Positions 4,759 through 61,600 of a DNA stretch of 64,000 nt are shown here, piece after piece. Both the position numbers and the translations under genes were made by a program. The notes under the pieces were generated by a model. It did not search any database. It worked only from the letters and a program-made list of their open reading frames with translations, and had not been told where the DNA came from. The DNA is from Branchiostoma floridae. Taxonomy: Eukaryota > Chordata > Leptocardii > Amphioxiformes > Branchiostomatidae. Within the stretch, counting starts at the first letter, position 1. Each line of letters opens with the position of its first letter. The stretch is taken from the NCBI RefSeq assembly GCF_000003815.2, contig NC_049992.1, positions 8,034,976 to 8,098,975 on the forward strand, given 5' to 3'.

Positions 4759-4789
<31 letters not shown>

Positions 4790-5040
4790 GACACACACAC
4801 AGACACACCAAAAACTATACCTCCATTTTTTCATGGAGGTAATCAGTAGAAGCTAACACTGTTGTTATCAAAAGGTGGCTTGCCAACTTATGTTTTATAT
4901 CTAGGTCAACCCAATCAAAATCTAACGAAACCGGAATATAAAAAGGCTGCGTGATTTCTTCACCACTGTCTCCATGTTCTATTGATCCAGGGAAGGGTTA
5001 TTTATAACCCTCTACTACTAAGTATGTTTGGAAAGTAAGC
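3850..5040 (+). repeat. Interspersed repeat with internal tandem units and CA microsatellite
   Basis: Segments at about 4030-4300 and 4320-4580 are diverged copies of one unit of about 265 bases. Each starts with 'attatgcaaat', then a Gly-less 'ccgtygttcc' stretch, 'gacaaaaa.gcccctgc' and 'gaccatagcatgt'. A CA microsatellite lies at 4749-4806. The part from 4501 to about 5035 reappears inverted at 11757-12290 with very high identity, so this is a mobile repeat family. A frame of about 90 codons runs through the CA tract but is not a credible gene. Confidence 0.7.
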
Positions 5041-5995: not shown

Positions 5996-6066
5996 CCTTC
6001 TTTACAAACTATAGCTGCGTACGCACCATGTCCTGGTTTTTCGGTATTTGGCGCAAAAAAAGACCC
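5996..6066 (+). repeat. Dispersed 70-bp repeat, copy 2
   Basis: Second copy of the sequence at 1836-1905. It is the better conserved copy around 'tgcgtacgcaccatgtcctg'. Confidence 0.7.
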
Positions 6067-6299
6067 CTTTTCAAATGCCCTGACATATTTTTTGGTCTAC
6101 TGCCACCCCCCCACCCGCCTACGACAAGACCGAGTAGCACAAACAGCTCTCAGGCTTCAAGATTCAGCGTTTCGAGTTGTTGTGATACTATGGTAGTACA
6201 GAAAAATTAGGTATACACGAATGACAATATCATTTAATTCCAGAAACGTCAGCAGGACTTCAATATGTATAACACTGCATTTTATGGACGAAGCTAGAT

Positions 6300-7105
6300 T
6301 TCATAAGCTGGCAGAATGTTTGCAGAGAGTCTCAATTCTTTCAGCATGAACAGTCACGGGTCCATACCTCTGGTCCGCCACGACTCGCGGCTTGTAGTGA
6401 ATCTGTGCCAGGTAAACCCGTCCATGTGTGACCGATCCTAAAGTTGTGTAAACGCAAAAGTGGACACCTGATACGGACCTGACATGGGGCGTGGCCTCGC
6501 TCACTGAAGGGAGCGGTCGGGACACCATGGTCCAGCCTGTAATGTAAGGATACATAAAAACATGGCTGTTATAAAGAAAATTGTGCATCGATCCGAAAAC
6601 GTTACACCCTGCGTTAGCGTCAAAGACAAATACTTAATGATCTTGCATTCTACATTTTTTGTAACACGTATGGGTTCTACTTTGTTTTGGGGATAGGTCT
6701 TCTGAGGTCTAACCTACTTCTCAAGCGTGATACCACCATTGTTTGTAACGGTTACGCTCAAGGTCTTAAAGGATGAAGACGCAGTAGGATAAGTAAGAAA
6801 GAAGACAAGTGCAGATGCGTAAGAAAACGGCGTCAGTAGTCTCGAATTTCTGACAGTGTCTAAACTTGTTGCCAGCCTGAAAAAAGATAACGTTGCCCTA
6901 AGAGGCTCTCCTTTTTAAGACTCTAAAAGAGGTCCGTATACTACTGTATTGACCAGGTTACCTCTCTTGCGGGTACGTCATCCCATACCTGTAACCCGTC
7001 TGCCTATGACGAGGCTTACAGTTCGCCCACAGCCCGTTAAACTGTGACGATATCGCCACATTAGGACCCGTGACCCGAGTCCTGGAACCCCTGCTGCGAG
7101 CAAAA
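6300..7105 (-). other. Two possible minus-strand exons, unidentified (weak claudin-like motif)
   Basis: On the minus strand an open segment at about 7096-6990 is preceded by an AG acceptor and followed by 'TTACAG|gtatgg'. It reads ...RVTGPNVAISSQFNGLWANC..., which resembles the claudin first-loop pattern (GLW..C), but the preceding Trp and the second Cys are absent. A second open segment at about 6544-6301, after 'cattacag', reads GWTMVSRPLPSVSEA... and ends at a stop; I do not recognise it. The two need not belong together. They may be exons of an undetected gene, remnants, or chance. Confidence 0.2.
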
Positions 7106-7556
7106 GAAACATTTCTCCTGTAGATCGCCGTGCAAAATAGGCAAGCTAGATCTAGCATATATGGGTACTTGTATTTGGCTCATACCATACCCGCTACAGT
7201 GTCGTTGTACGTAAACCTGAGTTACGTCATCTTTTGAATGCTGAACGGTGTTCAGCTACAGGTAAGGAAATAATGAGGGGCGAGCTTAAATCGGTTATGT
7301 GGGGCTGATGTTACAAGCACAGTCGTTTCAAATGACCCTTTGGGACAAGATGTGCACGTATACAGTTAGACAGATTTGCCAACTCTTTATGATGTAACTC
7401 AACCGACAAATTTACCAGTCTGAGAGTAATGAGTCTTTGTGCCAGCCGTATAGGCATGGCCGAAAAAGGCAAAACAGTTTTTGGGGTAATTCTTATTTGC
7501 TTTCAGACAAACACAAGGTGGCACTGCACTCAAGTTAGGAACTTATTTCAACAGTA

Positions 7557-7557
7557 T

Positions 7558-7602
<45 letters not shown>
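7557..7602. repeat. (TA)n microsatellite
   Basis: About 45 bases of alternating TA with one or two interruptions, about 140 bases upstream of the first transporter coding exon. Confidence 0.9.
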
Positions 7603-7605
<3 letters not shown>

Positions 7606-7742
7606 ATGATATGGACTATTAATATTAACGGTGAGCCAACAGCTCGTCGTCCTATGTCGTGAAATTCACCACTAACGTTATATCGGATTCTGCAAAATAG
7701 TCGAAAAATGTTTTGTTTTTGTTTCCAGATCTGTGATCCGCG

Positions 7743-10700
7743 ATGCCACCGTTCCGCCAGGAGTCCGACCCCCGGGCTAACACCCCTCCCCCTCGGGCCC
7801 GCTCCTCCCTCTGGGAGGCGGTGTTCCGGCGGAAGCTGATCGGGCCCTCCACGTTCCGGTCCCCGCTGAGGCGATGCCTGGAGGCCCGGGACCTGATGGC
7901 CCTGGGGCTGTCGGCGGTGCTCGGTACGGGGATATACATTACGGTGGGACTGGTGGCCAGGCAACACGCAGGTCAGGGGAATCTTTGCGTGTAATAACTC
8001 AAACATTGTCTGAAAATGATACCTACGTATGCGCAGGAAATATCTCGATCAGTTTGCGTGTAATAATTAAAATATTGTCTTAAAACAAAACCTGCGTCGA
8101 GAAGTCTAAACGGTGACCTATAATTTCTCCTTGTTTCGTCGACGACTCAAGATGTTTCAACAATAGTCATAAAACACATGAAAATAAACATCTCGACGCT
8201 CAGAGCGCTTTAATATGATATCGACTAAGCAGACTTGCGAAATGGCAAATCGATGTCACTCAAGCCATGGCTCAAAACAGCAACTTATACAAGTTATAGA
8301 CATGCCTTTAGTCGCGACTTACGGACGAAGGGCGATGACCGGCAGCCTGGTTTTTGTCAGTCCCAAGATGTTCATATTCTTTTTCTGTCCATACAGGTCC
8401 GGCAGTGCTGGTGTCCTTCGTAGTAGGAGGCCTGGCCGCCTTCCTGACCAGTCTGTGCCAAGCCGAGTTCGTAGCACGGCTCCCATTGGCCGGCGCCACC
8501 TACACGTACATCTACGTCACGGTAGGCGAACTGTGGGGCTTTCTTATTGGCTGGAACACTGTGATGGAGCTAACGGTGGCGCTGGCGTTCGTGGGTCGCA
8601 CCTGGAGTTCACACCTGGACGCCTTGTGCGGTCACGCCATCAGTATCTACCTTAAGGCCCACGTGGCTACCTGGGACCTCACGCCTTTAGCTGACTTTCC
8701 TGACTTCTGCGCGTTCGGCGCGGTGTTGCTAACTGTGCTGTTCGTCATCATAGGAGCTAAGATATCGAGTTGGGTTTCCGCCATCTTTATTTCCATCAAC
8801 TTCGTGGTCATCATCTGCGTCATCGTTGCGGGCGCGTTCGCGTCACACCTGGGAAACTGGACGGAGGCTGAGTTCGCGCCATTTGGGTGGGAGGGCGTCA
8901 TAACCGGCGCCGCCATCGCCTTCAGCTGCTTCACCGGACTCACCGTCATCCTGACGTCAGCGGAAGAGACGCATGAAGCTAACACGTCACTTCCGGGATC
9001 CTTGATCATGACGGTGGTGACGTCACTTCCGCTATACATAGGAGTGTCCGTTATATTAACAATGATAGTGCCATGGGACTCGATTGACGTAACGTCACCA
9101 TTGCCGAGCGCTTTTCTGAACCACGGACGTAACTGGCGCTGGGCGTGGTATCTGACGACAGCCGGGTGTCTGTCGGCCATGTTGGCTGCGCAGGTCGCCA
9201 TTTTGGTGGCCCTGTCGCGGACCGTGTATTCTCTAGCAGCTGACGGGCTCTTCTTCTCCTTCTGTGGGAAGGTGAGCAGGACGACGCAGGTGCCCGTGGT
9301 GGCCGCGCTGATTTTCGGCGGGGTGGCGTCGTTCCTGGCCTTGGTGCTGGACGTAGAGTCGCTGGTGAAGTTCGCGTCCATGGGGTCGCTCCTGTCGTAC
9401 ATCGTGCTCCCGATGTGCTCCATCATCTCGCGATACCAGCCGCCGTTACCGCACGAGATCCCGCACATCCAGTACCAGTGGGTGCAGCAGCAGATGCGCG
9501 AGCACGCCTACGACACCGAACCGCCTCGGGTTTCCTCGGAAGACTTCGTGAACGAGTTCGGCCCGAGGTTCCGCCGAGTCGGCGAGCTCAGATCGACGTC
9601 AAGGTACTTAGACTGCATCAAGAACCTTCCCGCCGGTCACGTGATCACCACGTGCATCCTGTCCCTCACTATCGTGCTCGTCGGCTGCAGTGTCCTGGTC
9701 AAGCATGCGCAGTGGGAACCTGTGACGTCACACTGGTGGGTGTTCTTGCTGCTGACGCTGCTGCTGGCTGCCATGGCAACCATACTGGCCGTGATCTTCG
9801 CACATCATCAGAACGAGGACATTCCGACCTTCAGGGTAAGGCCAATAACATAAAAAAGCAGAAAGCATCAACCCAGATTGTTGGCATAAAATGGATTAGA
9901 TTTTTAGAAAGACAATTAAAGAAGAGAAAATATATGATCTACTTTCATTTGAGAAAAATGCATTATTGTATTGGAAATGGCAATCCAAACCAATGACATT
10001 TTTGCTGTTATGAATAATAGTTTGGGGACTACAAATTATCTACCAAAGCAGAGATAGATTATGATAAATAGCCATCAAAATAATAGATAGTTGGTTTTAG
10101 ATAATAAGTTCACCTTTATCCGCGGGATAACCTATATTTGTGTGTTTGAAAACAAAGAATTCTAAATTATAATATATACAAAATATATCAGTTTGAAACC
10201 ACAGTTTGTCAACTTGATATCAATAACATGTTCTGTTTTGAAAAACAAACCAAACAAACAACGGATGTAGGTTAAAGGTGAACTAGCGGATAAAGCCGAA
10301 CTAGCTTATATGCTAAGATCTAAGACATGACAATGCGTCCACGTCCATTGTTAACCCTGTAACCTGTGCCCCCTCCCCTAGTTACGGATGATCCCGTTCG
10401 TCCCGGCGCTGTCCCTGTGTCTGAACGTGCTGCTGGTGGTGCACCTGGACGGGAAAACCTGGGCACGCTGCGCCACGTGGATCGGAATAGGTGGGTAGTC
10501 CACGGATCATTCTCTCCAGAAATATGAAAAAGATACTATCACAATCTTCGAACACATGCATAACAGCCCCTTGATACTCCTTGCAAAACACATTTCAGTT
10601 ATACTTCTATTTCATACTATACATGTATATTTAAAAGTTTTTAGAAAAGTTTTTGGCTGACTGCCATTTTTGCGTGCAAAGAATACTTGATATCAAACTA

Positions 10701-12854: not shown

Positions 12855-15800
12855 TTACACAGCAAACGTCAGACACTTGTGATGCTTGTGACGCTTTCCC
12901 ACGTGACTGGGGATCACCTGCTCGTTAAAGAGCGCATGCGTGGAGATGGGCTTCAGGAGGATGGCCTCGGTCTCGTGCGGGTGATATCCCTTTGAGAACC
13001 GCTGGGTGGAGTGGCAGACGCCGTAGAACAGGTAGTTCAGAATCCCTGGGAGGGACAGAACAGAAATCGTATCGATCAGGCCTACATATACATTTTTAAA
13101 GGCTGTTAAAGTTGGTAGAAATTACTATAGACTCTACTCTACTTCGCTCTTGATATTTTCCTCGACTGGTAAGCCCTAAAACGTGTGAATGCCTGATCAT
13201 ATAAGTTTCATTTTCCAATCGATCCCAATTTTTTTTCAGGTCCGTTTTTTCTGGACCAGTCCAACGAGAAAAAACGGTTTTGTACCGGTATACCGTACCG
13301 GTACCCACCCCTAATCGGGATACATCGATCACACTATCATTCTATGATAGTGAACTAATTGCATACATGTACATGCTGTGCTACGAAAGCATTTTTGGCG
13401 ACGCCTAAGAGAACAGAAAGCGTCCGTTTGGCAAAATTTCCCCAAATTCGATAGGCATTTCTGGAATTTTTCCGCTTGTGCCTAGTAGCCACATTTGTGT
13501 ATTCCCTCGGAAATTTTTTCCTCAGGTATATCCTCTTGGCTAAAAGAAACAAACTGCGTACCTATAGCCATCCAGCCTCCGTACAGTACCCATGTCTTGT
13601 CGGCCAGGCCCGCCATCATGGCGCACGTCCCCACCATGGCCAGCACGGCCAGCCAGGGCATGACGGGCGCGCGGAGCACCAGTCCCCCCCGCCCCTGGGG
13701 CAGGTACAGCAGCACCCCCACCGCCCCCAGCACGGTGGTGGTCAGGCCGATCAGCACCAGGATACCCCACACCTGCATGGGTTCAAACAAGAGTACTGTT
13801 TCGTGAGTGGTTGAAGTTGTTTTTTTAACCCTTGTCATGCTAAGAATGTTTTTCAAATCTAACAAGTTGAACCCTAAGCTGTCTGTTTAATTAACCAAAT
13901 AAGTAAAATTTGACCTATTCTTTGCTGCTGCCGCAGGTATACTTCTCTAATTACTGTGGTATGCCGTATTTAAGTGAGAGATGCCCCAAACCCGTAAAGG
14001 TACTGGACCCACAAACAGGCATAATGTATGTACAACCCGTATATGTATACTAGTCTATACGGGCTCAGTAAGGTTTTAACACTGTCAACGCCAAGGGAGG
14101 GAACGAATTATTGTTCTGTTACTCATTGCCGCATGGTGGCGTTGCGGCAACAAGAATGCGATCTTAACATGTCTGAGTCTGTATCCCCCTCGTTTCAGTT
14201 TGACGTTGTTTCTTCTTATTAAGAGTATGGTATAACTGACTCCATACTTGGTCAAAATTCATTACAGGAAAAAATTCGGGAAACAAATGTGATATTTGTT
14301 GTGAAATGTTGATTTTTTCCTGAAATTAGTAATCCCCAATGCCATGCTCAATGATGATTTCTTTCAGTGTTGAGTTTTCTTTCAATATGGTTTGACGGAA
14401 TACCCACCTGATAGAACACTTGGTCGGGGTTCCTGACGCACACCGTTGCTAGGGCAACTAAGCTGACAACTGACAACAGAACCATGGACGTGGCGATGTA
14501 TCCCGTCATCCTTGTGGGCACGACGTATTTCCGCATCCGCTTGTACAGAGGCGTGGCCTGTGCGGGTCCCTTGCTGGCCATGTTGCTCGCACGCCGTCGA
14601 TAAGCCTCCATGATGGCGTAGATGTCCACTTCTTCATCTTCGTCCTCCTCCTCCTCATTCTCGTCCCCAGAGCTCTCTGCACTTGAGTCCGACAAGGTCC
14701 CGGATGTGGTAGTCCCCGTGTAGGTTACATGTCCTGCTGACGTCAGCTCTTCGACTTCTAAGATTCCTGCTGATCTTTCCGAGTGATGACGTACACGAAC
14801 TGCGTCATCGTTGCCAGTGTCACGTGACAGCCCACTGCCATCGTCCTCCACAGTCCCGCTCACTTGGTAGCAAAGGATGATGACGCATGCGCAGGAAATC
14901 GTCTGGACAACAAGAGACGTGCTGGCGCAAAGTTCTATCAAGTCTGCCTGCCGAAAAGCGAGGGATAAAAGGCCGACAAAGATTCCCGATAGGAGGATTC
15001 CGACGACAGGTTTCGTGGTGCCGACCCGTTTTCTCAGCAGATAACTGACGAGGCCGTCGTTTGCCATGTTCTCTGCAAGTTGTGGAATTCGGTAAGAGAC
15101 GAATATGATTGCGACCGACAATATTGCCACCTGCCATAACGCGACTATGTACGTCGCAAACTTGGCTGCCGCCACAGCAAAGGCACTCGGGAGCGGGGCG
15201 AAATGATCCACCTGAGACTGGGGGGAGAGATGTGATTGTACAATGGTGACCATGGTAAACGAGGTGACTATTGCGAAAGGAGTCATGACCAGAGCGCCCC
15301 AAACGTTCCGTTTCTTGGTCCCTTTACGCTCGACTCCAGTCCGAGCCAGTTCTTCGAACCCAAGGAACCCCGGAGACAAGATGGCTGCTCCTGACGCCAC
15401 CTGTAGAGATCATACAAAAAAACGCCATGAACTTAAGTTTTACGCCCTGCACGTCCTAAGGTATTCAAGTACATGGCGACCATAGGTCATATGAAATCCA
15501 GCATAGAAGCAATGATTCATGAAGAGATCTCTTATAAGTCTTTTAAAAGTTTTTCTAAACAAGTTCTTTGGAGAACATTGTTGACAAAATCAATGGCAAT
15601 TGTGTNNNNNNNNNNNNNNNNNNNNNNNNNNNNNNNNNNNNNNNNNNNNNNNNNNNNNNNNNNNNNNNNNNNNNNNNNNNNNNNNNNNNNNNNNNNNNNN
15701 NNNNNTTTTATAGTAAATATAAATAAAAAATACAAATCATGCCATAAAACTGAAAGCAAGTCGTATAGGTCTGTACAACTATTATTGTATAAAGAACTAG

Positions 15801-18800: not shown

Positions 18801-20214
18801 GAAAAAAGCATCAAGGTATTGGCCCATTCTACCCCTGTGCCAAATTTCAGGTCATTCGGTCCAGGAACGGCGGAGATGAATCACTTTGAAGATTTGACAG
18901 GAGAAAGAAAGAAGAAACATTACGAATACAATATATTTCACCATACTATGTATGGCTGAAATATAATGACTCACCAAACGTATAACGTCTGTCGTCATTT
19001 CCGAGTGTTTCCAGTTTGCACTTTGGGTGAAGAACAATCCAATGGAGAAGACAAACACCAACAGAGTGCCGGCTAGAACATGAAGGATGTCCAGGAAGAA
19101 GTTCTGTACATCCGACTTAAGTTGGGACGACACCAGACACGCCAAAACTCCGAAAATGAAAGCTAAAAAGTCTGGGTAACTTGACATGTGGGGAAGTCCT
19201 CCAATGCTCATGCTCAGTTCGTCGCTCATCACGTGACTGGACAGGTAGTCTATGGTCTGACTGAGCGCGCGTGCGCAGCAAGCACCTCCGGTCATTAACT
19301 GTAGCAGGCTGGTCCAGCCGATGACGTAAGCCACGAACTCGCCGATGGTTGCGTAGCAACAGCTGTAGGTGTCGGGCAGCTCCGAGCTGTCCGGGAGGAC
19401 ACGCAGTGCGCGTGCGCGAAGCTCCGTGTGAACCAGACCTGTTGATGTTAGAGATAAAAAGTTCTATGCAGATTTTACAATGTACTGATCATGTATCATA
19501 ACCTATCGGTATTCTCGTATTTTTATGTCAGTATTGTCGCAATTTAGGTAGAAAGGAATTGTTCATATTAGATAAAATGTGTGTATTCTTATTATATAGC
19601 GACTTCACTCTTTCTCTCCAATAACTTAGGGCTTATAACTAAGCTCATATCACTTATTGATCTGTTTTAGACACAAACACATCTATTGTTCCAACTTTAG
19701 CATCCTGTTCATTGCCTCTGGTGTGCATGGACGTTTTTTGTTATTGCTTTTTCCCTTAATATAAACTATAGAGTTAAGACAATTTTATGTGTACAATTTT
19801 TAAGCTGACATTATAGAATCTATCTATTGTATCATGATCAGATGAATGTGTACTCAAAAGACAAATAATATTTACAAGTACATATAGAGTAGTAGGTGAT
19901 ATAGAATGCCTTTACCCACCTGTTAAGAGGTTTGTGACGCATACCACGGCCAGGGACAGGAGAAGAACAGGACCGCCCACCCCCTGTATGGCGAAATACC
20001 CCGTCAACACGGCCAGTCCGAGCCCGTACTCCCCACCGAGCCCGGCTCGCACCAGGCTTCGGATCCGGGTAGCCCTGGGCCCGACGGGTGCGCCCTCCCC
20101 AGCCGGTGAGCTGGGCCCAAAGGGAGTATCGCTACCCGGGATGGTATCCAGTCGGCGCGTACGGAATAACGTCCGCGCAGTGTCCCGCATCCAGGCAGAC
20201 ATGTACCCCGGCAT
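12855..20214 (-). CDS. Diverged CAT-type SLC7 family transporter (5 coding exons)
   Basis: Exons in transcript order: 20214-19920, 19438-18975, 15400-14408, 13772-13562 and 13045-12855. They join in phase (1, 0, 0, 1) to give 717 aa, normal for a CAT protein. Exon 2 begins GLVHTELRARAL and includes YATIGEFVAYVIGWT, matching the CAT 'VTVGELWAFITGWN' helix. Exon 3 opens with ASGAAILSPGFLGFEELAR, matching 'SGAATCFYAFVGFDCIA'. The last junction, MAIG|ILNYLFYGVCHS, is at the same place and phase as in the plus-strand paralogue. Odd features: the first helix reads GGEYGLGLAVLTGYFA rather than the usual GxGIY motif, and the loop encoded in exon 3 carries a long acidic run (ENEEEEDEDEE). This may be a CAT relative with altered or lost cationic transport, as known for SLC7A4; that is inference. 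The ATG at 20214 is the first in-frame one; a 5' noncoding exon is possible. The intron between exons 2 and 3 holds a 100-N gap and tandem repeats. Confidence 0.88.
13215..13315. mobile_element. Partial copy of the 51.7 kb hAT-like element
   Basis: The sequence 'aggtccgttttttctggacc' continues to 'gtaccggtacccacccctaa', resembling the ends of the element at 51700-52700 (tagggctgggtatcggtac). It lies in the last intron of the minus-strand transporter. Confidence 0.55.
15606..15705. other. Assembly gap (100 N)
   Basis: Exactly 100 N. It falls in the intron between exons 2 and 3 of the minus-strand transporter, so no coding sequence need be missing; the reading phase is intact across the junction. 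Confidence 0.99.
17041..18200 (+). repeat. Tandem duplication with a unit of about 750 bases
   Basis: The first unit starts 'agaccgtcaacaaaagtcgc' near 17041 and the second 'agaccgtcaacaacagtcgc' near 17792. Both continue through 'cggcgcagcgaa' or its variant, 'gaagagaag', 'gaagccttct', 'agtctaaaatgc' and 'cttcgctgattggct' with moderate divergence. It is intronic in the minus-strand transporter. Confidence 0.7.
18377..18730 (+). repeat. Tandem repeat, 162-163 bp unit, about 2.3 copies
   Basis: Starts of 'g(t/c)aataccagggtacagg' at 18377, 18540 and 18702 are 163 and 162 bases apart. Each unit includes 'gccaaaagtgtcc', 'caaaaataagcattttgttg' and 'caaatttcagctcatt'. Long open frames here are a by-product of the repeat. 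Confidence 0.85.
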
Positions 20215-21857
20215 GGTCAGGTTTAGCGTCCGTCTTTCGTCCCCTTTTTGAGATGTTCCACTTAATCTTGGCAAACACTGGCGATCAGTCAGTGCCTTGA
20301 GCTATTCAGAGGCAACATGCCGTAGCAACATGCTAGTATATCCCCTGCAAACCATGACGTGTCACCTTCACTTTTAAACTATACAACAAATATGTGAATC
20401 TTCACCATGGAGCAAAACTTAACGTCGCTTTTCAAGGATATACCCAAGTCAGTGGTAAGAGTCTTGGTTCAGCTGTGCTTTAGTTTTCTACTTTCCTTCC
20501 CCAAGTCTTCTCCTTGCTGTTTATAAGACTCTTACCTGTGTTTTGTTTAGACTAGAGTCTGCACGTTCAGACTTTGTTGACTTTTGCGAAATATGAGAGT
20601 TGTAGGCATGCAGAATGTCTAAGAACAAGACATACTGGCGGATAGGTCTTCTGTATGTCCTGTAGATTCACCTGAGAGTTCTCACCTTTCTTTAGGGAAA
20701 ACAAGCCGTTCACGGTCCAGCTTGAAACACTCCGATTTGGTCTTGTAGCGCTCTCCAAACTTTCCCATCACGCTCCAATTACGTTCATCGGGTCATGTTT
20801 GAACTGTAAAGCCTGTGAAACAATCCCGTCTCGACGCACCCACACGATTTCCTAGAAGCAGCAGCCTTGTCGACGTGTTGGCGAAAGTATGTGCGCAGTC
20901 CCTATAACCACATCCGCCAACAGAAATATCGTCATATTGTGGATATGATATCCTGCAACAATGGCGACGTACACAACAGTGGGGACAGCTGGTAGAACCA
21001 CCTTACCGCCCCGGGGGCGTGTAACAGCCGGGAGCGTGACCCTGCCGAACTCAACCTGCAGGTTCTGTGGTTTAAATCAATAACAACACGAAAGACTCGC
21101 TCTTTAGTTTAGCCAGGAAAACATTTACACAACTTGGTAGACCGATAGCTTAAACTATCACTGTCTTGTTTTGTGCAAATCAGGGTATGTCACAGAATAA
21201 CCCAACTCCAAAGCTAGAGAAGTCCCACTTGACGTAATATATTACCTACAGCCTTTCAACAACAAGGAATACGTGATATTCTCACTTGCACGGTAATATT
21301 TGTAACGTTATGTATTCGTTCCGTTCCTTCATTTCACAAAAGACACCATAGTTTAGGTTTCTCCATGTTGGATTGTCGACCTGTCATGCCTGTTGTTCCG
21401 TGTAACGTTACATACGACTCTCTATCTCGTCATATCATCATCATATCGATTCCTTTGATTCGTCCTTTCCAACAACAACGAAGAAACTCCAACAGCTAAG
21501 GAAGCTTGCAGTGTGTAAAACACAGTGGGAAAAGATGACGAAAGACTGGATGCAGCTATAACGTTAGGGCTCTTCAAAGACTGTAGAGGCAGAACACAGT
21601 GGATGATGATGATGAATTCGTTCTAATCCATCTTATTGTTTCTTTCAATACCATAATGGTCCCCTCCCCATTTTGCTTATATTTTCAATCTACAGACTCT
21701 TAAGTTGTAGATAGACATACTGCCTCAAACATGTCAAACGGCGTCTGACTTTGTTGTGCACCTGTTTTGACTGTGTAGTGCAAGAGCGCCACCTATCTTA
21801 TCTTGGTGAAACTTCAAGGGTCTCGGCTTAGCTCTATGATTCACCATCATCATCATC
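20215..21857. other. Head-to-head intergenic region between the minus transporter and MICOS10
   Basis: 1.64 kb separates the two start codons, which face away from each other. The stretch must hold both promoters and any 5' noncoding exons. I see no CDS. A TGATGATGATG run near 21603 and a CATCATCATCAT run just before the MICOS10 start are simple repeats. No clear TATA box was found. Confidence 0.4.
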
Positions 21858-28662: not shown

Positions 28663-31600
28663 CTATAACTCCTCCTTTGGTTTTCCCTTGCTTGTCTTTG
28701 TCCTGTGTTTCTTGAGGTTCTGAAGAAGTTTTCTGGCCTGGTAGTGTTCGACTTCGTTGTAACGTTCATCTAGTGTGTACCACATGGCAAGGGCGCATCT
28801 TCTGCCCTTCAGTACTGCCCTAACGCCATGTAGATTCTCCTCACCAGCGGAGAACCCCACTAGCCTACCACACTTGGGCTTTACGCTGGACTGGGTTGGG
28901 AGAAGATGAAAGTTGGTCATAATTATGATCAATAATAATCTTACAGTACTATGATATGCATTTAAAGACACCAGATTGAGTCTTTTGTATTGAAAATGTT
29001 TTCTTTACAAAATTTAATCTTTACAGGCAAATTTTGCAAGGTCTTTTACATACAAGTGCATTTACCTCATACATTGTATGAATAGATCAACATGTTGATT
29101 TTAACATTCATTTTATACTAACTGATTCTTATGTCTAAATATTCTTTTTTGTATATTTGTACACAGTAAGGGTTATCTCCTAAAATGTACTAACTAAATT
29201 AATACAAAGGCTGAAACAATATCAAATTATTTTTGAGCAAAATATAGGGCTGTTGCAATTTGCTTTGCATTTATCATTTGTTGCTAGTCCATTTTTGAAA
29301 GCATAAGGTTTAACCATAAACCTTATAGTTTACTACCCAATAAAGGTCCATATGTTTGTCCTTAAAAGTATCACACTAGTCAATGTGACAGTAAAGCTCT
29401 CACCTGTACAGTTTCATTAGCATGTGTAAAGATGAACTCTCCTCCCTTGAACCCTTCATTTAGATAAAGAATTGCACTGAAAATAAACAGAAGCCATCAT
29501 TACAAGCTGGGCAAGTGCATAAACGTTATACTATGATCACATATCATTCATAACCATGTAATACTACTCTTTTAAACACACATTAGAAAGAACATTAATA
29601 ATCTACAAATTCCATCAAGATTTTGATTTGTGTTTTTTTATGATAGGAATAAGTCACTGTGGTTAAGTACATAAACTTTGCACTACAACCAGCATAACAG
29701 CAACCATAAGATGGATAAGACATAACCTTGTGATAATATTATTTTAAACACACACTGGATAGAACATTGATAATCTTAAACATTTTTAGCTGTTGAAGAG
29801 TTTTTTATGTGAATAAGGATGACTTTCATCATCTACATGTACCTCCAATCTCTCCATGTAAAAGCAGGCAGCTTTTTGGGACAGGACCCATCGGCCAGGA
29901 GGTGGCAGTTGTCTGCATGGATGGGGTGACTTAAGTCTGTCCTGTCATCTGTAGAGTCTGGAAAAAGAAAGGCAATGTTTACACACACAAGATCTTATGA
30001 TAGAGAGGGGAATCTTAGTAATGCCATTATTGATTATTCCATTTGTTTGTATACAAAAACTATGACTATGTGGAACTCCATCCACACACAAACATACAAA
30101 TTTGTCCTTGAAGCTGAACACCATCCACACACAACTATACAGCCCTGTCCTTGGTGCTAAACACCATTCACACAAATATGCATACTTGTCATTGGTTCTG
30201 AATAACATCCACAAACATACAGACCTATCCCTGGTGCAGGACACCATCCACACACACAGACACAGAGACCTATCCTTCATGCTGATCACCATACACACAC
30301 AAATATACAGACCTGTCCTTGGTGCTGAACACCTTCCACACACAAACATACAGACCTGTCCTTGGTGCTAAACACCATTCACACGAATATACATACTTGT
30401 CATTGGTTCTGAACAACAGCCACAAACATACAGACCTATCCCTGGTGCAGAACACCATCCACACACACAGACACAGAGACCTATCCTTCGTGCTGATCAC
30501 CATACACACACAAATATACACACCTGTCCTTGGTGCTGAACACCTTCCACACGCAAACATACAGACCTGTCCTTGGTGCTGAACACCCTCCACACACAAA
30601 CATACAGACCGATGCTGAACACCATCCACACAAACATACAGACTGGTACTGGACACCATCCACACACAAACATACAGACCTGTCCTTGGTGCTGAACACC
30701 TTCCACACACAAACATACAGACCTGTCCTTGCTGATGAACACCTTCCACACACAAACATACACACAGACCTGTCCTTGGTGCTGAACACCTTCCACACAC
30801 AAACATACAGACCTGTCCTTGGTGATGAACACCTTCCACACACAAACATACAGACCTGTCCTTGCCGATGAACACCTTCCACACACAAACATACAGACCT
30901 GTCCTTGCTGATGAACACCTTCCACACACAAACATACAGACCGATGCTGAACACCATCCACACAAACATACAGACCTGTACTGGACACCATCCACACACA
31001 AACATACAGACCTGTCCTTGGTGCTGAACACCCTCCACACACAAACATACAGACCTGTACTGGACACCATCCACACACAAACATACAGACCTGTGCTTGG
31101 TGCTGAACACCCTCCACACACAAACATACAGACCTGTCCTTGGTGCTGAACACCATCCACACACAAATATTGAATGTGTACTCACAAGGCTCTGCTGTCC
31201 TGCAGACCAGGTGTGTATAGGTGAAGAACAGCTGGTGTTTCATGTGGAAGTAGCCGTGAACGTACCGCCGCGCCTTGTTGCTCAGGTTCAAGTACATCTC
31301 AGCATGATCCACCGACACTAGGCCTCTCTTTGCAAGCTGAAAAAAATTACTTCTTGTTAGCTTTAAAGGAAGTTACTTCTTGTTAGATTTGGGCCAGATT
31401 ATAAAATGCAATGGGCTAACTTTAAAGGCAACAGAAGCCAGGGATAAACAAGTCCACTAGCCCTATAGTCCCGGACAAGTGAAAATGCCAATCGGGCAAG
31501 TGCATGTCCTTCCCCACTTGCCCGATCGGACAAGTTAGCTTTTCTCCATTGAGTGAGATTTTGATGTACTTGCTACTTTTCAAAGTCATGGCATCAAGCA

Positions 31601-34600
31601 TTGGTTAACACAGAAAATAGAGCCAATAACAAAAATTCCATTGAAGGCCATGAATGTACATAGAAAAATGTCATTTAGATTTCGGGCAAGTGAAAAGTTG
31701 GTTCGGGCAAGTAAATCTTTTAAGTACTTGCCCGATAGGACAAGTCAATTTTAGAAAACTTGTCCAACCCTGGAAGCTACAAGACATTAAGAAACCTTAC
31801 AGAGAGGAATAAGGGGCCAGTTTCTGGCCTAGGCACCTATGCAAGTAAGTAGGATTTAATATGCTAGAGATAACAAAGAGAATGTAGATGTTGGCAAACT
31901 CCTGTAACAGATACATTTTTAAAAACTTGTATCATTTATTTTTGTAGCCTGACTTCTGCAACATTTTAAAGAGTGAAATCTTACTATTAGACCATTCCTA
32001 TGGAACTGCCAACTTACAACAAGATCAATGTGGAGGAAAGCCTTAACCTTAGAAGTCTATGATCTCCCACAGAAATTTGCAACATGATGGTAAATTTTTT
32101 CTACTCAGTGAATATGAGGCAATTCAGCATAATTTTCATAGCTGAAATAGACAATTCAGAAGCTGACAGGAATATACAAGTGTTAGAACAAAGTGATAAC
32201 AGATGAAATTAGGATAAAAACACGCATACTAACTCCAGGAATAAGGTTAGAGCAACATTCAGCCACAAAAACACAATATCCAGGACTTCTGGATACCCCA
32301 AATTTCATGCAATAGTAACAGGAAATTTTGATTAGCTAGAAGCAAACTCTTAATTTCGTTTTAACTGTAAGTACTGTCTAATGTTGTTATCCATTCAGTT
32401 TTTGTTCATTTTGCCATCAAAACAACAAGTTCATCCATACAACATTGTTAGTGTGGCCCTTCTGAGCTACAAAATGTATGTAGCAAAATAAAAGCATTAC
32501 ACATATATAGCAGCACTACAAATTGAATGGAACAAAACCTGACAATCCAAAATGTACAGGACCTTGAAAACCCACCACAGATGACATGTGCCAACAGACT
32601 TGTGCTATGGTTACACATGTTGCCATAGCAACAGATGTGTCCCATAGCAACAGACAAGTGCCATGGTAACAGATGTGTGCCATAGCAACGGGAGTCTGCC
32701 TTACCCACCTCGACTGCTTTCAGTACCGTCAGGCCCTCAAACCTTTCGTACACTGTGTGCGCGTGGGCACCACGGCCCTTGTACCCGTCTCCGTCCCTAG
32801 CCCCTAGCTATGGGAACACACAGTTAGGGTTAGTATGGAGGGGACACAGAATCTGTTAGATCAGTGGCTTAACCAGGCCCCAATAGCCAGCTGCTGAGTG
32901 ATGACCTTCAAAACATTTCTGACAGCTATTCATGATCTACTGCACAAATCAATGAGGTGATGACAGAAAGCCAAAAAGAACAGAGGGAAATCTATAATAC
33001 AGCTGTCTAAATCTGTATTGTTATACAGCTGTTTAAAGCCGTATTGTTTTTATTAAAGTTGAGCTTGAAAATGGACTTCAAGGTCAAAGTCAGCAGCCAG
33101 TGTTGGAGACTGGGGTTCTTGCTAACGCCCCCCTCCCCACAAACCTCTGCGGCTTGTAGCACTGTGAGTCCATCGAACCGCTCGAACTCTGTGTGCACGT
33201 GTTTGTCGCCCTCATATCCGTTCCCCTCCGTACCACCCTGAAAAATGGCGGATGCGTACAAGTTCTGTCACGGGGTCAAAGGTTAGTCTGATCGAATTAT
33301 GCCGGCTCTTTTGCTTTCTTCCTGATTGGTGTGCCATGCATGTTACAGGTAATCTCAATCCACAGAAATTTCTTGTAAATGGCTAGATCTTGAGAGTCTT
33401 GGCTGAACTTTGAAAAAAAAACTACACTTATACAACTGTAACTGGTTATAATAATTTAGCATTGCTGCAATCTAATCATGAATATTTCTTTAACTATCAC
33501 ATTTTTCATACCATTCTTCATGTTTGTCCTTTATTCAAATTGTGTTATGATTGGAGATTTTACAGATCAATTCTTCGGCAGTCGCAATTCTCTACAAGAG
33601 CATTAAAACTGTAGTTACAAAGCTTAACACTGTCACTAACTTGAATGATTATTGTACAAAAGTACATGTACTAGCCTTTGCTAGATGAGCCAACATCTTG
33701 CACTCCTCCTCAGACGCTATCCCGTCTGCAACCATCCGTTTGGGGCCCTTCAGATCGCGCGGTCCCTTCACCACGGTCACACCCGGCATGTTGTAGCCGT
33801 ACCGCACATCCTTTGTCACCCGGGGCTCAGCTGGGAAATATCATGTTGTAAAAGTCACGAATTTGTGTTTTAAATGTGTTCTCTGTATAAGTCTGATAAT
33901 GTGGGGTCGGATGCTGTAAGTTAAGATTGTGGTCTGTTAGTAACAGGTAAGAGGTTAGACACGTCCTTCGTCACCCGGGGTTCGGCTGGGAAACATTGCG
34001 TTGTAAAAGTCATAAATGGTAAACCAATAAGTCTGAACTACAGGTATTTGGTGTCTTGTCTTATTCTCTGTATAAATCTGATAAGGTGGGGTCAAATGTC
34101 GTACATTAAGTTGTTAATGAGTTGAGAGTGTTGCTTCAACGTAACTTGAATGTGTGAAAGTACGCAAAGTGATATGGTCCTTAACCAGCATCGCACCTTC
34201 AGTTGAATTTGCTGATTGCCAGAGAGTCGACCTTTTTTTTCATGAAAATTCAAACACTGTTACATTGGATGGGATTAAGATGTCTGTTTTGTTGCCAGAC
34301 TGAAACAAACTCAAAGGAGTCCTAAACTCCAGAAAAAGAATAAAGACTTTTAAATTAGGATTCGGAGGTTCATCTCCAATTCAGATCTTATCCTCACCTT
34401 TCTCCTCTCCATCTTCAACCATGTCCTCTTCATCATCTTCCTCTTCTTCTTCCTCCTCCTCCTCCTCATTCGGCCTGGGTGGGGAGGCATTGGGCTGGTC
34501 CTGGTACCAGGCATTACCCTGGAGGCCATCAATGACAAACTGGAACACACAAAACATAACAATACAAGTCAGAGGAGGGTGAAACCAATAGGAATAGTCA

Positions 34601-37600: not shown

Positions 37601-40600
37601 TCCTTTCTCCTCCTACCATGAAATTAAGTCCCTGCAGAGATCAATGAGTTTGGAAAGAATCTTGATACGTTGCTGGCCAGATCAAAATGACATTGCATAC
37701 ATCATGATACTGTATCACAATTCACATAAAACTTGCCAACAACATCCTAAGATACCTTCCATAGCTCTCTCTACCTGCCAGCTATATCTAAACAGAGCAA
37801 AAACCTGGCCTTTGATTATACACCCTGTCTGTCATGGTTACTTCAGATGGCCCCTGAGCGCCCTATGACAAAAAGCCGCAGGCTTCTGAGAGACTGATGG
37901 GTGAACATTAACGGCAGCGACTTCAAAAATGGAAAAATATTGATCCGGCCTTGCTTATCTCATACTTGCAGCAAGTTTTGCTTTGGAGTGCGGGCGCACT
38001 AATACTTCAATTTATCTTCAAGTTCATATCTCACTGTTGTCTTTGGGCAATTTTTCACATGTATAACCTAAGCTATTTATAGCTATTATACATCATATTC
38101 CTAGGGAGATGAAACCAGTGTTTTTGTATATAAAAAAGTTGCACAAAGGGAACTTCTGGTTTGTTGTGTGAGTATGGTAATACTTCTACAGATTTGAAAG
38201 TTCATATCTCACTGTTGTATTTGGCTATCTTTCATCACTTAGGCCACACCAATTTAACTTGTTGGTTCACAGATTTTGAAAAAATAACTTAAAATAAATA
38301 AGCTTTAACTGGAAAAACATAATGAAAACAAAGCCTGAGGACCAGGTGTATGCCTTGGTGCATTTAGGCCTAGGATTATGGAGTGAACATCGTCATATTC
38401 AAGTTTTCCTCCCGGCCTGTTGCATTTATGATGTCTGCTTGCTATAGTTTCACTTAGAAAATCCGTGAACCAACAAATTAAATTGGTGTGGCCTTATCCT
38501 GTACAATAAGTTATTCATTCTAAGCTGTTGTATATAACCTGGTCCAGTTTTAGTTTGATATGTAGATATAAGAATACTTCAATACACTCCAAGTTCATTT
38601 TTCACTGTTGTCTTGGGGCAATATTCTTCTTCCTATATCCTACACATTCATCATACTTGGCAAAGGCTACATTTTTATGTGAATTGTGCAAGTATCATAA
38701 AGCAATGTCTAAAGTTTGATATGTGGTTGTGCTTATACTTTTGAATCAATACTTACTGTTGCCTTTGGGCAATATCTCTGCATTTATTCCATATTGAAAG
38801 CTGGTATTAGTTTTTGTACATGATTCCATGAGGGATAAGACCCATCCAAGTATATTTATGTGATGCTTCACGATGACATACATTGTGTAAGTCCTGCTTT
38901 ATGTAGAAACCAGTTAAGGCTTGAAGCAAAGTTTTTTTTTGAGAACCAGCTGCACGAGTCATAAACATGATCAAGCATCAGTTTGAAACATTTAGTTAAC
39001 ATATGATAGTTGATATACTTATGAAAGAAAAATTGGGCAAACTTCCCAAATGAATGGTAAGGGAAATACTGGTACATTCAAATTATAATATTGGATTGTA
39101 AAAATGATTCATATTACATATATATCAATACTCAGACTTTGTGCAATTTGCTGACAGCTATGGGTGGTGCAACTATTTTTCTTCACAATTCATTTCTGCT
39201 TTTTTCATTGACTTAATCAATCAATGGCGTTGTATGTGGCGTAACTGGTAGAGTTGGGTTTGGAATCTAGACGTTCCAGGGTTCGATACTCGCCATGCCC
39301 CCGGCGTTGTGCCCTCAAGAAAGGCACTATACACAAATTTCCCTGACATTGAAATGACGCCCATCAAGTTTCAGTGGCTAATCTGCCGATATTGTGTCAA
39401 AAATATACTCGGATTTGGTGTGCCAATGTCCACACATGTACGTGTTAACATTTGCCACTAAGAACTGCATTTTTTTCTGCATGATTGTCTAGCAGTAGTT
39501 TGCATTCCAATTCCATGACTTCGTACAAAGCTTGGTATGCCAATGACCACATGTACACAATGTCATGTACGTGTCAACATTTGTCACTAAGAACCGTAAC
39601 TTAAAAAAAAATCCAATCCAACTCACCTCATCTCCAAAGTTTTTCTGGATGTCCTGGAGTAATTTGCGTTCCAGCTCCATAACCTCGTGCACGGCCGCTG
39701 CCTTCGGTCGCACCTCCAGCATGTCCTCGCTGGCCCAGGGGAGTGTCAGGAAGTAGTCCACGTTCTGGGTCATCATGGGATCAGTCGGGTAGAAGATCAG
39801 GTACGTGGCAGCGTTGCGCATCACGTTGGGATAGTCCTTCACTGTATGGTTGGAAGAAAAGGATAAGTTAAGTGTATTATAAGCAAAAACTTTTAAGGAG
39901 ACGGGTGCAATGGCCGAATGGGTAGAGTGTTTGCCTTGCATTTGGTAGGTCGTGAGTTTGATCGCCGGCCGTGTCATATATATTATTAAAACCTCCTTGG
40001 TCATACCAAAGACTTGCGTTCTCTGCTTAGCACTCAGCATTCAGGAAAGAGTATGGCAGATGAAAATATACCACTACCAGTTGACTAGCCCCTTGGTGTA
40101 GTGATTGTGCAAAGTTGTGTGGCCCATGGCTTCTGAACCGGAGACGGGTGACGCTCTATGCATCTAATAAATGCGCCCTCAAGTTGCAGGAAGGACTTTG
40201 ACTTGCAAAAACTTTTGCACTAGTTTCATTTTAGCATTTTTCGCAATGGCACTCGCACCTCAATGACAATCAAGAAGTTTGCCCAAAGGTTGTCAACAGT
40301 GTGATTTTGGCTCTCATCATGGATTGACATCTGGGATATTGAAAAATGCTGAAGGTGATATCATGTATCCCTCTGGTTAAACAAACAAACAAGTATGCAG
40401 TGAAGGCATCAATTTTTGTGAGCGGTAGGGAGGTGTGAATTTAACCTATTGAGACAATTATTCATTTTTCCTGTAATCAATGAGTTCTTTCAAAGCAAAA
40501 ATGATTTTCGAGCCTTTTGCAGTGGTCTTCAAATATTTCAAACACAAGAGTACATTTGCAATCCACATGAACCTTTTCACAAAGCAAAAATCTTTTTATA

Positions 40601-55600: not shown

Positions 55601-58600
55601 CTTAAAAGAATTGATTAGAAGCTGGCAGATTTGTTTTTATACCCTAACATTTTTTATCAACTATAGCACCAAAAATTCTGTTGTCTACATTGACTCCAAT
55701 GCCCCCCCCCCCTTTTTTTTACAGGGATTCACTTGACAAGTTGTCAGTACAGAGCTCTGACCTGGAGAGATACGTCTATGAACAGACACTCCTCATCAAG
55801 GTACATTTGCATTCTATTTATACCACCTACAATTATACTCAGACTATTCTTGACCCCATTTAAGACCAGACATACAAATTTTAGCCTTAATCAGGTTGTT
55901 ACAGAGCATTCTCATACAACTCACATTATCAATAAAACGGGAAGGAACTGACTGCCATGATGGTCTATTTGTATAGGACACCATCATGGCAGTCGGTAGC
56001 CATTCTGTAGCAACCTGATTCAAGTGTGAACAGCATCTATGTGTTTTATTGGTAAGTAACAAGCACACAATCTTTCCATCCCAGGACAAGACAAGACGGC
56101 TGGAGACCAGAAATGCACGACTGGAGAACACCCTGCTGTTCTTACAGCAACGTGTAGAAAACATCAGCGTCAAGAACGAGTTTGGAGATGTGCGAGGTAA
56201 GAAGCATTCTGCATTAAAGTTTCTGAAGGGAATGAAGCCTCTTGTGATTGTTGTTTGCTTGTTCCCAGAGGTCTGCCAAGTCCTACACTTCTTTCTGTTA
56301 TCTTGGTAAACCTCAGGAAAGGAAAAAAGGAATTCTTTTCCATTTTGTCGGATAATGGAAAGACCCATTATTTTGCTTGTCATTAGCAACAAGATTCTGT
56401 CAAATGACGGGGCTGTTCCGTATACAGATGTGATTTAATGTCTATTGTGGAAACAAGGGTCTCCAACATTCTCTTAGCAAAAGATGCTCGCTACATAGCT
56501 TTGCAATTCTATATCCCATTTACATGGTGTAACACTTGCGAAAGTTACCAAGTATTCCAAAAGCATGAAACAAAATGTCAAACTTTTTGCAGTGTCCTCA
56601 TGCACTATATTCATTAATCTTACCCATTTATGATCAAATTTTTCCTCCTGTAGATCGAGTAAAAGACTGTTCCTCCCTCTACAAGAGAGGTTATACCCTG
56701 AACACTGTCTACATGATACCAGCCTACACAGGCCCCTTTGTAATGTACACCATGCCTTCCTTCAACACATACTGTGACATGCAAACCGACGGCGGGGGCT
56801 GGACAGTCATCCAGCGTCGTGTGAACGGTTCCATCAACTTTGACCGCAACTGGACGGACTACAAGTGGGGTTTCGGCGACAAGTTCGGGGAGTACTGGCT
56901 CGGGAACGAGAACATCTATCGTATCACCAACGAGCGGCCGAACAAACTGCGAGTCATGATCGAAGACTGGATGGGGATGAAGGCGTACGCGGAATATTCC
57001 ACTTTTTCCATCTCCAGCGAGCGCGACGGTTACAGACTGTCCCTGGGAGAATATGCGGGGGGTCTTGCAGGGGACTCCATCAGGAATCAGTACAACAGTC
57101 AGAACTCTATGGCGTTCAGCACCAAGGACAGGGACAATGACAGTTCGCCGGAGTCGAGCTGCGCGCAGCGTCGTCGCGGAGGCTGGTGGTACAGCCAGTG
57201 CGGGTGGGCCAGTCTGAACGGACTGTATCGGGTCGGAGGTCAGTACCTGGGCCGTGCCAATGGAATCATCTGGTTCTCGTGGGGAGGGTCGTTCCGATAT
57301 TCTATGAAGAAAGTCACCATGATGGTTCGACCAGCGGACTTCTAGATATCATGTCAACCTTCAACATATACCTATGGTTCTAAATGTGTTATATACCGTA
57401 GAACTGGTTATTTTTTTCTTAAAAAAAAACCCCATCTAATTAAGTGTTATTCCTTCCACCTTTAGTCACGTAAAAGTAGGAATGTACAATTTATTCAAAT
57501 TTTATGTCTAGCGAGCCTGTGAATTGCACGGTATTAGTAGACTCACTAAGTAGATTTTATAATGGTAGGTATACTTACACTGGAAATACACGTACTGCAG
57601 ATAGTGGAACATGTTGGCAAGTAGCTGCTCCACAAATCGTCCCTCAATGTGGGACATCCGTACGATGCAGTTCCGTCGACACAGCAAAAGTTCCACATAG
57701 CGATCTGTAAAAAACAAAAGACATGGACAGAAATATATGAGTAACCATGTATATTACTAAAAGGAGCAGTATCTTCACCACTGCTTTATGCTTGGTAACC
57801 TAACATTGGTGAAAAGACAAAAGATATCATAGACGGTTCAAATACTAGCTGTGATTTTAAAATCGTTATACACACTATATATTCCTAAGGTCTTACAGGA
57901 GCCAATCCAAACTTGACCAGTTTCATACAGTTGTATAAGCTAGTAATACACGTAGTATCTATTGCATGCTGAACCATATTGTATGTACATGTATGTAATA
58001 AGGTGATGTGCCAGCATCTTTTTAATCCACATGTAGCTCACAGTCACAATGGAAAGATTGTTTCAGGGAGGTGGTATACAGTGTTTCTTCAACTAAGTCA
58101 GAATTTAGTGGTTTACACTAAGCAGTACTTTATGAGCTGGATAAATTGTAGTATGGGTAGGTAGATTTGTGTGCCAAGCTGGACACCAACATGTACATGT
58201 ACATGTCGATAACTAACATATATACATGTAGATGTGTGTGAGTTTGATGCTTCAATTATGTATGTTGAATTACATACAGTATGGTAAATTGTTGAAAGGT
58301 ACTAGTGTCAAATGTGTATTGTAGAGGCAATAAAACAACTTGTGTGTGTGTGTCATGACATTGTGATGAAAAATACAGAAAATGTACAAAGATTGTCTAA
58401 TCGTATGTGTATTCCAATCTAGAAAGGAGACAATAGTGCTGGTAGCTCCGATAATAGATATTTATATTCTACAGAAGACCTAGATTACGAGCCGAACTTC
58501 ATTGTGTAGTAGAGCATTCGACTAGGAATCTAGAGGTTTTGAGTTCGATAATCGCCATGCCCCCAGCCTTGTGCTCTTGCCGTCTTGGGAAAGGCACTTT

Positions 58601-61600
58601 ACAAGACCTTCACCCAAGTGTAAAACTGTGTACCTGATTTCAGTCTGGGAGGTTAAAGAATAAAGTACCTTTGCCTTTGGTCTGTACTGTGCATGTGTCA
58701 CTGTTAATATAAGTTACTAACTTAAGTGCAGTGCCACATTGTCCTCATCTGTCCAAAGCAAATAGAAAAGAAAATGATAAAGAACGAAAATAAAAGACCT
58801 ACCCGTGAGCGACAACCACAGGTCGTTTTTGTTGATCACCATGTTGTTTGGTCTTTCGCAGGAGGAACGACACTTGTCGTACTCTTCGTACCACAGTTCT
58901 AGCGCCTCCTCTAGGCTGTCTCTGGCATCTTCAAACTGGTTCATCAGATAATGGTCCATCCCATCCATGAACTTGTGCTACAAATATAAGATCAAGGACA
59001 CATTACTTCATCTACAATGTATACCGCCATTTCAATTGTCTTCTAGAATATAAATTTGGCACAAAAAATCTTGGAAACTTGATTTCAGTCAATATATATC
59101 ATATCTCCATGGACACTTCATCAAAATGCACTGTATCAAATATCATTGGAAAGCTTATTGAGTACAGTCCCATATATGTGTATTATGATTGCACATACCT
59201 GGGTTAAGGTATCGGACCGGAGTTTCTTTTACGATTTCGGAGGTTGGCGGGCAGCCTCAGGCTGAAGGGCTACAGTTCCGCTAGTAAACGTAGGACGCGA
59301 AACTTAATCAATATGGCGGAAAGCCGTTTACTGTCTCTTTCCGACAAACCTATTAGTACCGTCTGTTGCCTCTTTATTTTGGTTAGAATATGTAGTAAAA
59401 TTTTAATTTTGGACCCGAAAACTATCATTTTTTAACACTTTTTTGATCGAAGCTGCTTGGAAAAAACGAATTTTCCCAGGATAACGGCCTACGTGGTAGA
59501 GAAGCTAAATTCTTCATGTTTGTGTAAAATGAAAATAAAAAAATTCCATGTGATAACTTTTTTGCAATCTCCGATGACGTCATTTCTTCGAAATCGCATG
59601 AAAAACGCCGCTATTTGGGTCATCAGGCGAAAAAAACGCATCACCGTTGCAGCGGACTAATACAAAAATGGTTTCGCTGGCCGACCAACTACTCCTCGCA
59701 CAAAAACAATACAACCCACAGGCTTTTCAGAAAATACGGCATATCTATGCTCAGCTATAACGATCACCAAGCCATAGGGAGCAAAAGTTAGGGAGACAAC
59801 AGCGCACTTCCGGCCTATTACACCACCCTTCCGCCAACTCCGGTCAGATTTGAACTCCGACCCGGAACCTTAAGCATCTGACGGCTCAGACAAAACGTAC
59901 ATGATTAGGTTGTGAAAGAAAGGTGCTGCAATTTTACTTGATCATATATGTCCATTGTTTTGTAATAGTCATAATGAAAAATGTGTTTACTACGGGAAAG
60001 CATGCATATTTTCCTTTAAGATGATACCTAATGTGTTATGATCTATCTTTTGTGCAATCAGCACGATGACTGATTCTGTGGTGGGTCAACTAAAAAGTGC
60101 CAAAATTTCTGTCATAAACTATGTTGGTAATAAGAAATCTTAACATTTTTTGTTTTAACATCCTCACACAGTCAGATCTTGTGTTTGACCTTTGAATGTA
60201 CATGTAGGATTGTAACAAATAGACAAATCATTATCAATGGCAATAAATAAACCTTCCAATGACACAGAATGCTATAACAATTGTGCATGATATCAATGTA
60301 CAGTCATAACTATGTTTATATTTGATCTCCTGGTTCAGCATTTTCCATTTCTGTGAACCAACATATTAATATATTGGTGTGGATCTAAATGATGTATTTG
60401 TAGCCAGGAATATGTTGAGCTGTGTGATAAAAAAAATCTGGGAAAAGCGCAAGAGGAAAGATGAAACTACAGTTGTTGGGAACTGATTTCAATTAGGTTC
60501 CAGANNNNNNNNNNNNNNNNNNNNNNNNNNNNNNNNNNNNNNNNNNNNNNNNNNNNNNNNNNNNNNNNNNNNNNNNNNNNNNNNNNNNNNNNNNNNNNNN
60601 NNNNTTCAGAAAGATGAGACAACAGAGGAATTAAATTGATGAATGATGGCTGAAAGAATGCTCTTGATATGATTTGGTATGAATGACACAGATACAAAGT
60701 AAGAAACTCATTTTCTAAATGGCAATCCTTCTTTGATAGTACCATGATGTACACGTATACATGTACAGTACTGTATACTTGCCATGTCATGTTATCTTGG
60801 GGAGGGGCAGCTAGTACATAGGACTTTTTGTCCTATATACTGTAAATGCAGAAATTTTCGCGGTGGATTAATGTTCGCAGTGGATTAATGTTCGCGGTTT
60901 CCGCATTTTTCTATTATGATATTAGATTGCAGTCTATGGTGTTACCGCAAAGTTAAATCCACCGCGAAAAGTCCTTTTTCTCGCTACCGCGAAATTAAAT
61001 CCCCGCGAACTTAAATACATTTACAGTACTTTGACTTGAGACTTTATCTAAAAAATCCATTCGTGACATGCCCTTTGGTAGCACCACTAATCTTCCTGGA
61101 CTTCATGACTAAATGGAATAATAGCATAACACAATTTTTCCAGCACTTGACAAAACAAAACAAAGAACAAATTGACATGAAAGGCAACCAATAGCTATAG
61201 GACTATAGGCAGGAATGAATCTGTTCTGGATTGCAGTTTGACTTTCAATTGGGGAAAGTAATATCATGCTAGAATCCTTTATAATCTTATGGTTACATAT
61301 ACAATGTACTGCACAGTCATGCATTTCACAACAAAGTCATGTTTTTATTTTCAAAATAACAGTGGACAATTTTCCTCCAGAAAAGTTTTAAAATTCAAGT
61401 GAACACTTTAAAAACATCATCCCTCACACAGATTTTGGGACCAGTGACAAATCTTATGCAGAGATCATTACTGTTAGATGCAGGGCTGTAGCCAGCACCC
61501 GTCCTTCCGTCCTTTGACAGAATTTTGCAGCTAAGGACGGGGAAAAAAATTTGCCCCTTCCGTCCTCTGTGACAGACAAAAATCAATATGTAGGAGTAAA

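Follow-up and report, generated by a model that had tools for sequence, protein, structure and literature searches.

Two tandem homologous exons, A and B, in a predicted prolyl 3-hydroxylase (P3H) gene of the amphioxus Branchiostoma floridae are probably used as alternatives, mostly singly, for one segment of 31–33 residues located after the first catalytic-region helix (...EECKMLAHLAK). The gene lies on the minus strand of the window, by which we mean the whole 64-kb stretch of DNA analyzed here (C14:8034976-8098975). Both exons bear the marks of purifying selection, and the residues presumed to carry out catalysis are encoded outside the pair.

Gene structure and the tandem exon pair

The 3′ part of the P3H gene comprises seven consecutive exon positions, the third of which is occupied by the A/B pair (Table 1). 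The joined catalytic part carrying exon B matched human P3H1 (8k0e_A) with an E value of 3e-69 and 47% identity, a homology that extends over the catalytic region, and matched Pfam 2OG-FeII_Oxy_3 at 1.1e-11, starting at residue 147 of the 272 searched. His-148, Asp-150, His-218, and Arg-228 (HxD...H plus Arg; H148, D150, H218, R228) were invariant in all four rows of the P3H alignment; we take them to be the iron and 2-oxoglutarate ligands, and they are encoded in the shared catalytic exons, all of which are open. The HPIHADN sequence in exon D is presumably the iron-ligand motif. Farther upstream, three matches to P3H1/CRTAP sequence were found that may represent the CRTAP-like N-terminal helical repeats; their extents are given, two of them from an approximate P3H1 query.

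Table 1. Features of the P3H gene, listed in the direction of transcription (window positions)
Feature	Position	Strand	Basis
Match to P3H1 N-terminal region	58849..58974	-	Match extent; approximate P3H1 query
Match to P3H1 N-terminal region	57583..57708	-	Match extent; approximate P3H1 query
Match to P3H1/CRTAP N-terminal repeats	39618..39881	-	Match extent, not exact exon borders
Upstream exon with acidic stretch	34398..34539	-	Exon reading
Shared exon before the pair; first helix of catalytic region, ends HLAK	33676..33830	-	Human P3H1 alignment
ACTAAC, possible branch point of exon A, ~50 nt before it	33282..33287	-	Motif; function inferred
Exon A, 31 codons, 93 nt, GGTEGNGYEGDKHVHTEFERFDGLTVLQAAE	33145..33237	-	Borders, frame, homology to B, selection
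ACTAAC, possible branch point of exon B, ~27 nt before it	32829..32834	-	Motif; function inferred
Exon B, 33 codons, 99 nt, LGARDGDGYKGRGAHAHTVYERFEGLTVLKAVE	32709..32807	-	Borders, frame, homology to A, selection
Shared exon after the pair, begins LAKRGLVSVDHAEMY	31186..31336	-	Exon reading, human P3H1 alignment
Shared exon with HPIHADN (exon D)	29843..29957	-	Exon reading, P3H alignment
Shared catalytic exon	29404..29476	-	Exon reading, P3H alignment
Last coding exon, ends KPKEEL and stop	28663..28890	-	Exon reading, P3H alignment

An initial annotation of this DNA had read A and B as homologous exons with intact splice sites and phase 0 at both ends, and inspection of borders and frames together with a search of the window confirmed both this reading and the exon positions. 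Each exon is open and flanked by AG and GT (ag|exon|gt), and the two share 18 of 31 residues and 63 of 93 bases. Within the window, A and B found each other with an E value of ~5e-9, the next matches being at 0.037 (query A) and 0.29 (query B). The segment they encode lies between the first helix and the next conserved block. The slot had been placed just before the dioxygenase domain, which is correct insofar as it lies upstream of the Pfam match, but the alignment with human P3H1 runs through it, so that it belongs to the N-terminal part of the catalytic region.

Several other elements were observed in the window. At 34012-33960 on the minus strand, the acceptor and initial codons of the exon preceding the pair recur as a partial tandem repeat (45 of 53 bases equal). 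This copy keeps the AG and reads EPRVTKDV; by eye, its four differences within codons all fall at third positions, and past the end of the homology it runs to a stop, so that a truncated exon copy sits near the live A/B pair. A degenerate CTGTTGCTATGGCACACAT-like repeat (32690-32590) directly follows the donor of exon B, and a minisatellite-like repeat with units like GGTCTGTATGTTTGTGTGTGGA (30160-31190) occupies the intron after the exon that follows the pair, its long open frames on both strands being probably compositional. An open frame on the plus strand (56569-57345), resembling by eye a fibrinogen-related domain, is located inside a P3H intron between the second and third N-terminal matches and is perhaps a nested gene. 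Frames at 8339-9853 (+), 13482-15409 (-), and 18852-20301 (-) resemble, by eye, pieces of amino acid transporter genes and are possibly related to one another.

Other copies in the genome and selection on the two exons

When the genome (513431437 bases, 431 contigs) was searched with exon B at E ≤ 0.001, two places matched, namely B itself (5.2e-16) and A (3.0e-4), in a search that is too weak for slot exons as divergent as that of the P3H paralogue described here. Of 15 places matched by the catalytic part, the window gene accounted for seven, the paralogue for three, and a degenerate third copy for five. The paralogue (C14 8005391-8011176) lies on the other strand, separated from the end of the window gene by ~52 kb; its region (L018, C14:8001500-8011400) contained one clear slot match for A and B (4658-4744, VGVMPGNGGPFTYTNHEMFEGLEVIQAAK); this slot was in phase 0 on both sides as judged by eye, and the preceding exon had an ordinary donor (LAQ|gtgagc). 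The paralogue ends in NDEL, and one of its introns (~7080-9260 in L018) includes a long stretch that resembles a reverse transcriptase by eye. The third copy (C178:55918-58643; 4079-8638 in region L019), in which exons matched in broken frames, also had one clear slot match (4304-4366 in L019); its last exon is present in several tandem pieces, with matches starting at 7791, 8044, 8210, 8377, and 8543. Since exon B finds only itself and A, and the paralogue and the C178 copy have one clear slot match each, the duplication belongs to the window gene; by sequence comparison, the slot and its phases appear common to the window gene and the paralogue, whereas the duplication was seen only in the former.

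A and B differ at 5, 8, and 17 of 31 codon positions 1, 2, and 3, respectively, and the NG86 method gave a dS of 1.95 and a dN of 0.24, with the dS being rough and near saturation because only 22 synonymous sites are available. When neutral drift of equal extent was simulated from one copy, the frame stayed open and 18 identical residues were reached in 0.5% or 0.4% of runs. In a two-branch simulation with uniform priors, the observed counts were obtained in 455 of 96000 runs with both exons constrained vs 3 of 96000 with one neutral; an earlier run had given 53 of 12000 vs 1 of 12000. The fit was ~150-fold better with both exons constrained than with one neutral. The pair is old by synonymous divergence, and both copies are marked by purifying selection.

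The introns preceding A and B, and likewise those following A and B, showed no similarity beyond that of shuffled sequence (80 and 186 of 200 base shuffles were as good). A long-dead exon should resemble these non-similar introns, and long-term death of one exon is therefore disfavored. Death of one exon since the duplication was rejected on the simulations and this intron contrast, although a recent loss is invisible to the neutral test. Human P3H1 and the paralogue agree at ten slot positions, eight of which are preserved in A and eight in B; the exceptions are the first position (a gap in A, Leu in B) and the last (Glu in both). The A–B identity of 18/31 compares with 13/31 and 15/32 against human P3H1 and with 13/28 and 12/29 against the paralogue. 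A duplication that predates the split from the paralogue is unsupported by these identities, though QAA is common to A and the paralogue, and KA to B and the human protein. The earlier view that both exons are functional, fit the same slot, and are not dead is thus well supported by homology, family residues, the selection simulations, and the intron contrast.

Splice sites and use of the pair

The exon before the pair has a GC donor (AAG|GCTAGT) that scored 1.8 bits with an approximate matrix; no other candidate donor that is in frame and open scored above zero. A GT donor at this border was rejected, as the single in-frame, open GT candidate scored −3.3 bits on the same matrix. GC-AG introns are frequently linked to regulated splicing. 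The donors of A and B scored 4.6 and 8.9 bits, and those of the other exons 11.1, 7.0, 4.4, and 10.9, again with the approximate matrix; because the donor of A is no weaker than that of exon D (4.4), weakness alone does not mark A as regulated.

Use of one exon at a time is the likeliest reading because human P3H1 and the paralogue hold a single copy of the segment, which agrees with the proposal of mutually exclusive splicing in the initial annotation, but none of the sequence features tested would enforce such exclusion. A cis feature against joint inclusion is common in mutually exclusive exons, although dispensable, and at this locus no frame shift, short intron, or RNA pairing that forbids joint inclusion was found. 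Exclusion by frame was rejected, as 93 and 99 nt both preserve it. The exons are 337 nt apart and the ACTAAC of B, its likely branch point, lies ~311 nt from the donor of A, so steric exclusion by a short intron is inapplicable. Competing RNA pairing between introns, assessed over the first 600 of the 1372 nt of the downstream intron, was no stronger than expected from shuffled sequence (9, 11, and 17 of 60 shuffles matched it in strength). Site counts for RBFOX, ESRP, PTB, NOVA, CELF, MBNL, STAR, and G-run motifs lay between zero (NOVA cluster) and seven (G runs), raw figures to which we attach no weight; G runs occur downstream of the exon A donor, likewise a raw observation. Exclusive use, if real, would therefore need trans factors or unequal sites.

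Transcripts would mostly carry either A or B, giving two versions of the enzyme with different sequences close to the probable substrate site. Both versions are expected to be active enzymes, as the residues presumed to bind iron and 2-oxoglutarate are encoded by shared exons, and they might differ in the substrates they choose. For the same reason, the A/B switch would adjust the choice of collagen sequence or chain for 3-hydroxylation instead of switching catalysis on or off. More speculatively, A could be the regulated exon and B the one used by default, given the weak upstream GC donor and the lower donor score of A relative to B.

It is rather improbable that A and B are instead separate cassette exons, of which both, one, or neither may be included. 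The reading frame is open to the stop in all four combinations, and no exclusion mechanism was found. Joint inclusion also has a precedent in amphioxus Fgfr, in which exclusive and joint use of tandem exons are both reported, the extra exon IIIx being spliced together with its neighbor IIIc (PMC5703972). Fgfr IIIb/IIIc/IIIx resembles the P3H pair in that a cephalochordate gene has alternative exons in tandem, with an extra one specific to cephalochordates, but it encodes a receptor, is Esrp-regulated, and has one form that joins two exons (PMC5703972). Against cassette use, exactly one segment is present here in human P3H1 and the paralogue, and two segments or none in a compact catalytic domain would probably harm folding.

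There is a slim chance that one of the exons is a hardly used relic whose function was lost only recently. A loss of this kind would escape the neutral test, and the upstream GC donor and the lower-scoring donor of A are consistent with it, but long-term neutrality is disfavored by ~150 to 1, and both exons retain open frames and intact borders. Constant inclusion of both exons, resulting in an enzyme with a doubled segment, is very unlikely: the product would be in frame and the splice sites of both exons are good enough, but a doubled segment was found in no P3H compared, and the same family residues are retained in A and in B, which is what filling the slot singly would predict. An assembly artefact or collapsed alleles can practically be dismissed even though a single assembly underlies the analysis, as the three N gaps in the window (11657, 15606, 60505) are all far from the pair, exon B finds two places only in the genome, both at this locus, and two exons that differ at 30 of 93 bases are too divergent to be two alleles misplaced in tandem. 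Alternative use of A and B, mostly one per transcript, remains the probable reading.

Related exon pairs and the hairpin loop of prolyl 4-hydroxylases

In collagen prolyl 4-hydroxylases (P4Hs), two loops, one of them the hairpin loop, enclose the bound peptide. A global hhalign comparison aligned the P3H helix to the P4H helix and placed the P3H exon border just before the hairpin stretch, although weakly (P 2.3e-4, probability 20%); with fewer rows, the values were P 0.011 and probability 1.7%, and only the C-terminal part was included in the local alignment. With MAFFT, two of the three modes put the slot border at the start of the P4H hairpin region, and the third made the P3H segment an insertion. 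One scan each for viral and prokaryote relatives that might deepen the P3H profile confirmed none. We infer, with good motivation from these alignments, that the A/B segment would correspond to the substrate-binding hairpin loop of the P4Hs.

The exons of a mutually exclusive pair in P4HA1 are 71 nt long, unlike the P3H exons of 93 and 99 nt, which are both multiples of three, and P4HA2 has an exon 12a form. The P4HA1 pair, described as exons 9a/9b (PMC11868403) and named 10a/10b elsewhere (PMC5224494), had been missed in the initial annotation, whose statement of knowing no such pair in vertebrate P3H genes is uncontradicted among the literature matches listed. P4HA1 is likewise a collagen prolyl hydroxylase of the 2-oxoglutarate family whose paired exons are used singly (PMC11868403); its splice variants are reported to alter the substrate-binding hairpin loop of the catalytic domain (PMC9676403), which our alignment places after the helix that also precedes the P3H slot. 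It differs in catalyzing 4- rather than 3-hydroxylation and probably in an independent duplication, and its use is proven by RNA, with a reported cellular effect of the 9a form, whereas alternative use of the P3H pair is predicted from sequence. As for regulation, U2AF is listed as a regulator of the P4HA1 pair (PMC5224494), and a dependence of the pair on both CTCF and polymerase pausing has been reported (PMC11868403). The splice variants of P4HA2 (exon 12b form, PMC9676403) also change a substrate-binding loop of a collagen prolyl hydroxylase, but this is the βII–βIII loop at another place in the fold.

Human P3H1, a member of the same family whose catalytic region aligns through the slot, has one segment there, and an exon pair for this slot in it was not found among the literature matches listed. 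Nor did the matches listed for P3H splicing and tandem exon duplication include a P3H exon pair. Many convergent tandem exon events between distant animals are described, with ion channels prominent, in a paper whose main text names neither P3H nor P4HA (PMC9741552). No literature naming both "prolyl 3-hydroxylase" and "amphioxus" was found with those spellings; a paper matching "leprecan" and "amphioxus" concerns notochord expression in tunicates (PMC3034685). Tandem exon pairs are already known as a kind, and the P3H pair occupies an unusually telling position.

That A and B are mutually closest among the four P3H segments compared, with the paralogue having a single one, argues for a duplication separate from that of P4HA1. 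We tentatively suggest that P4HA1 in vertebrates and P3H in this chordate may have independently made the same substrate-gripping segment exchangeable, a recurrent splicing route for changing, per tissue, the set of collagen prolines that become hydroxylated. If the weakly supported match of the slot to the P4HA1 hairpin holds, splicing has converged on one loop in two related families of collagen prolyl hydroxylases, each of which would have made this segment exchangeable, probably on its own. Collagen 3-hydroxyproline is rare and site-specific, and its function is debated. Two versions of a segment kept for a long time near the probable substrate site would constitute a natural experiment on site choice in these enzymes.
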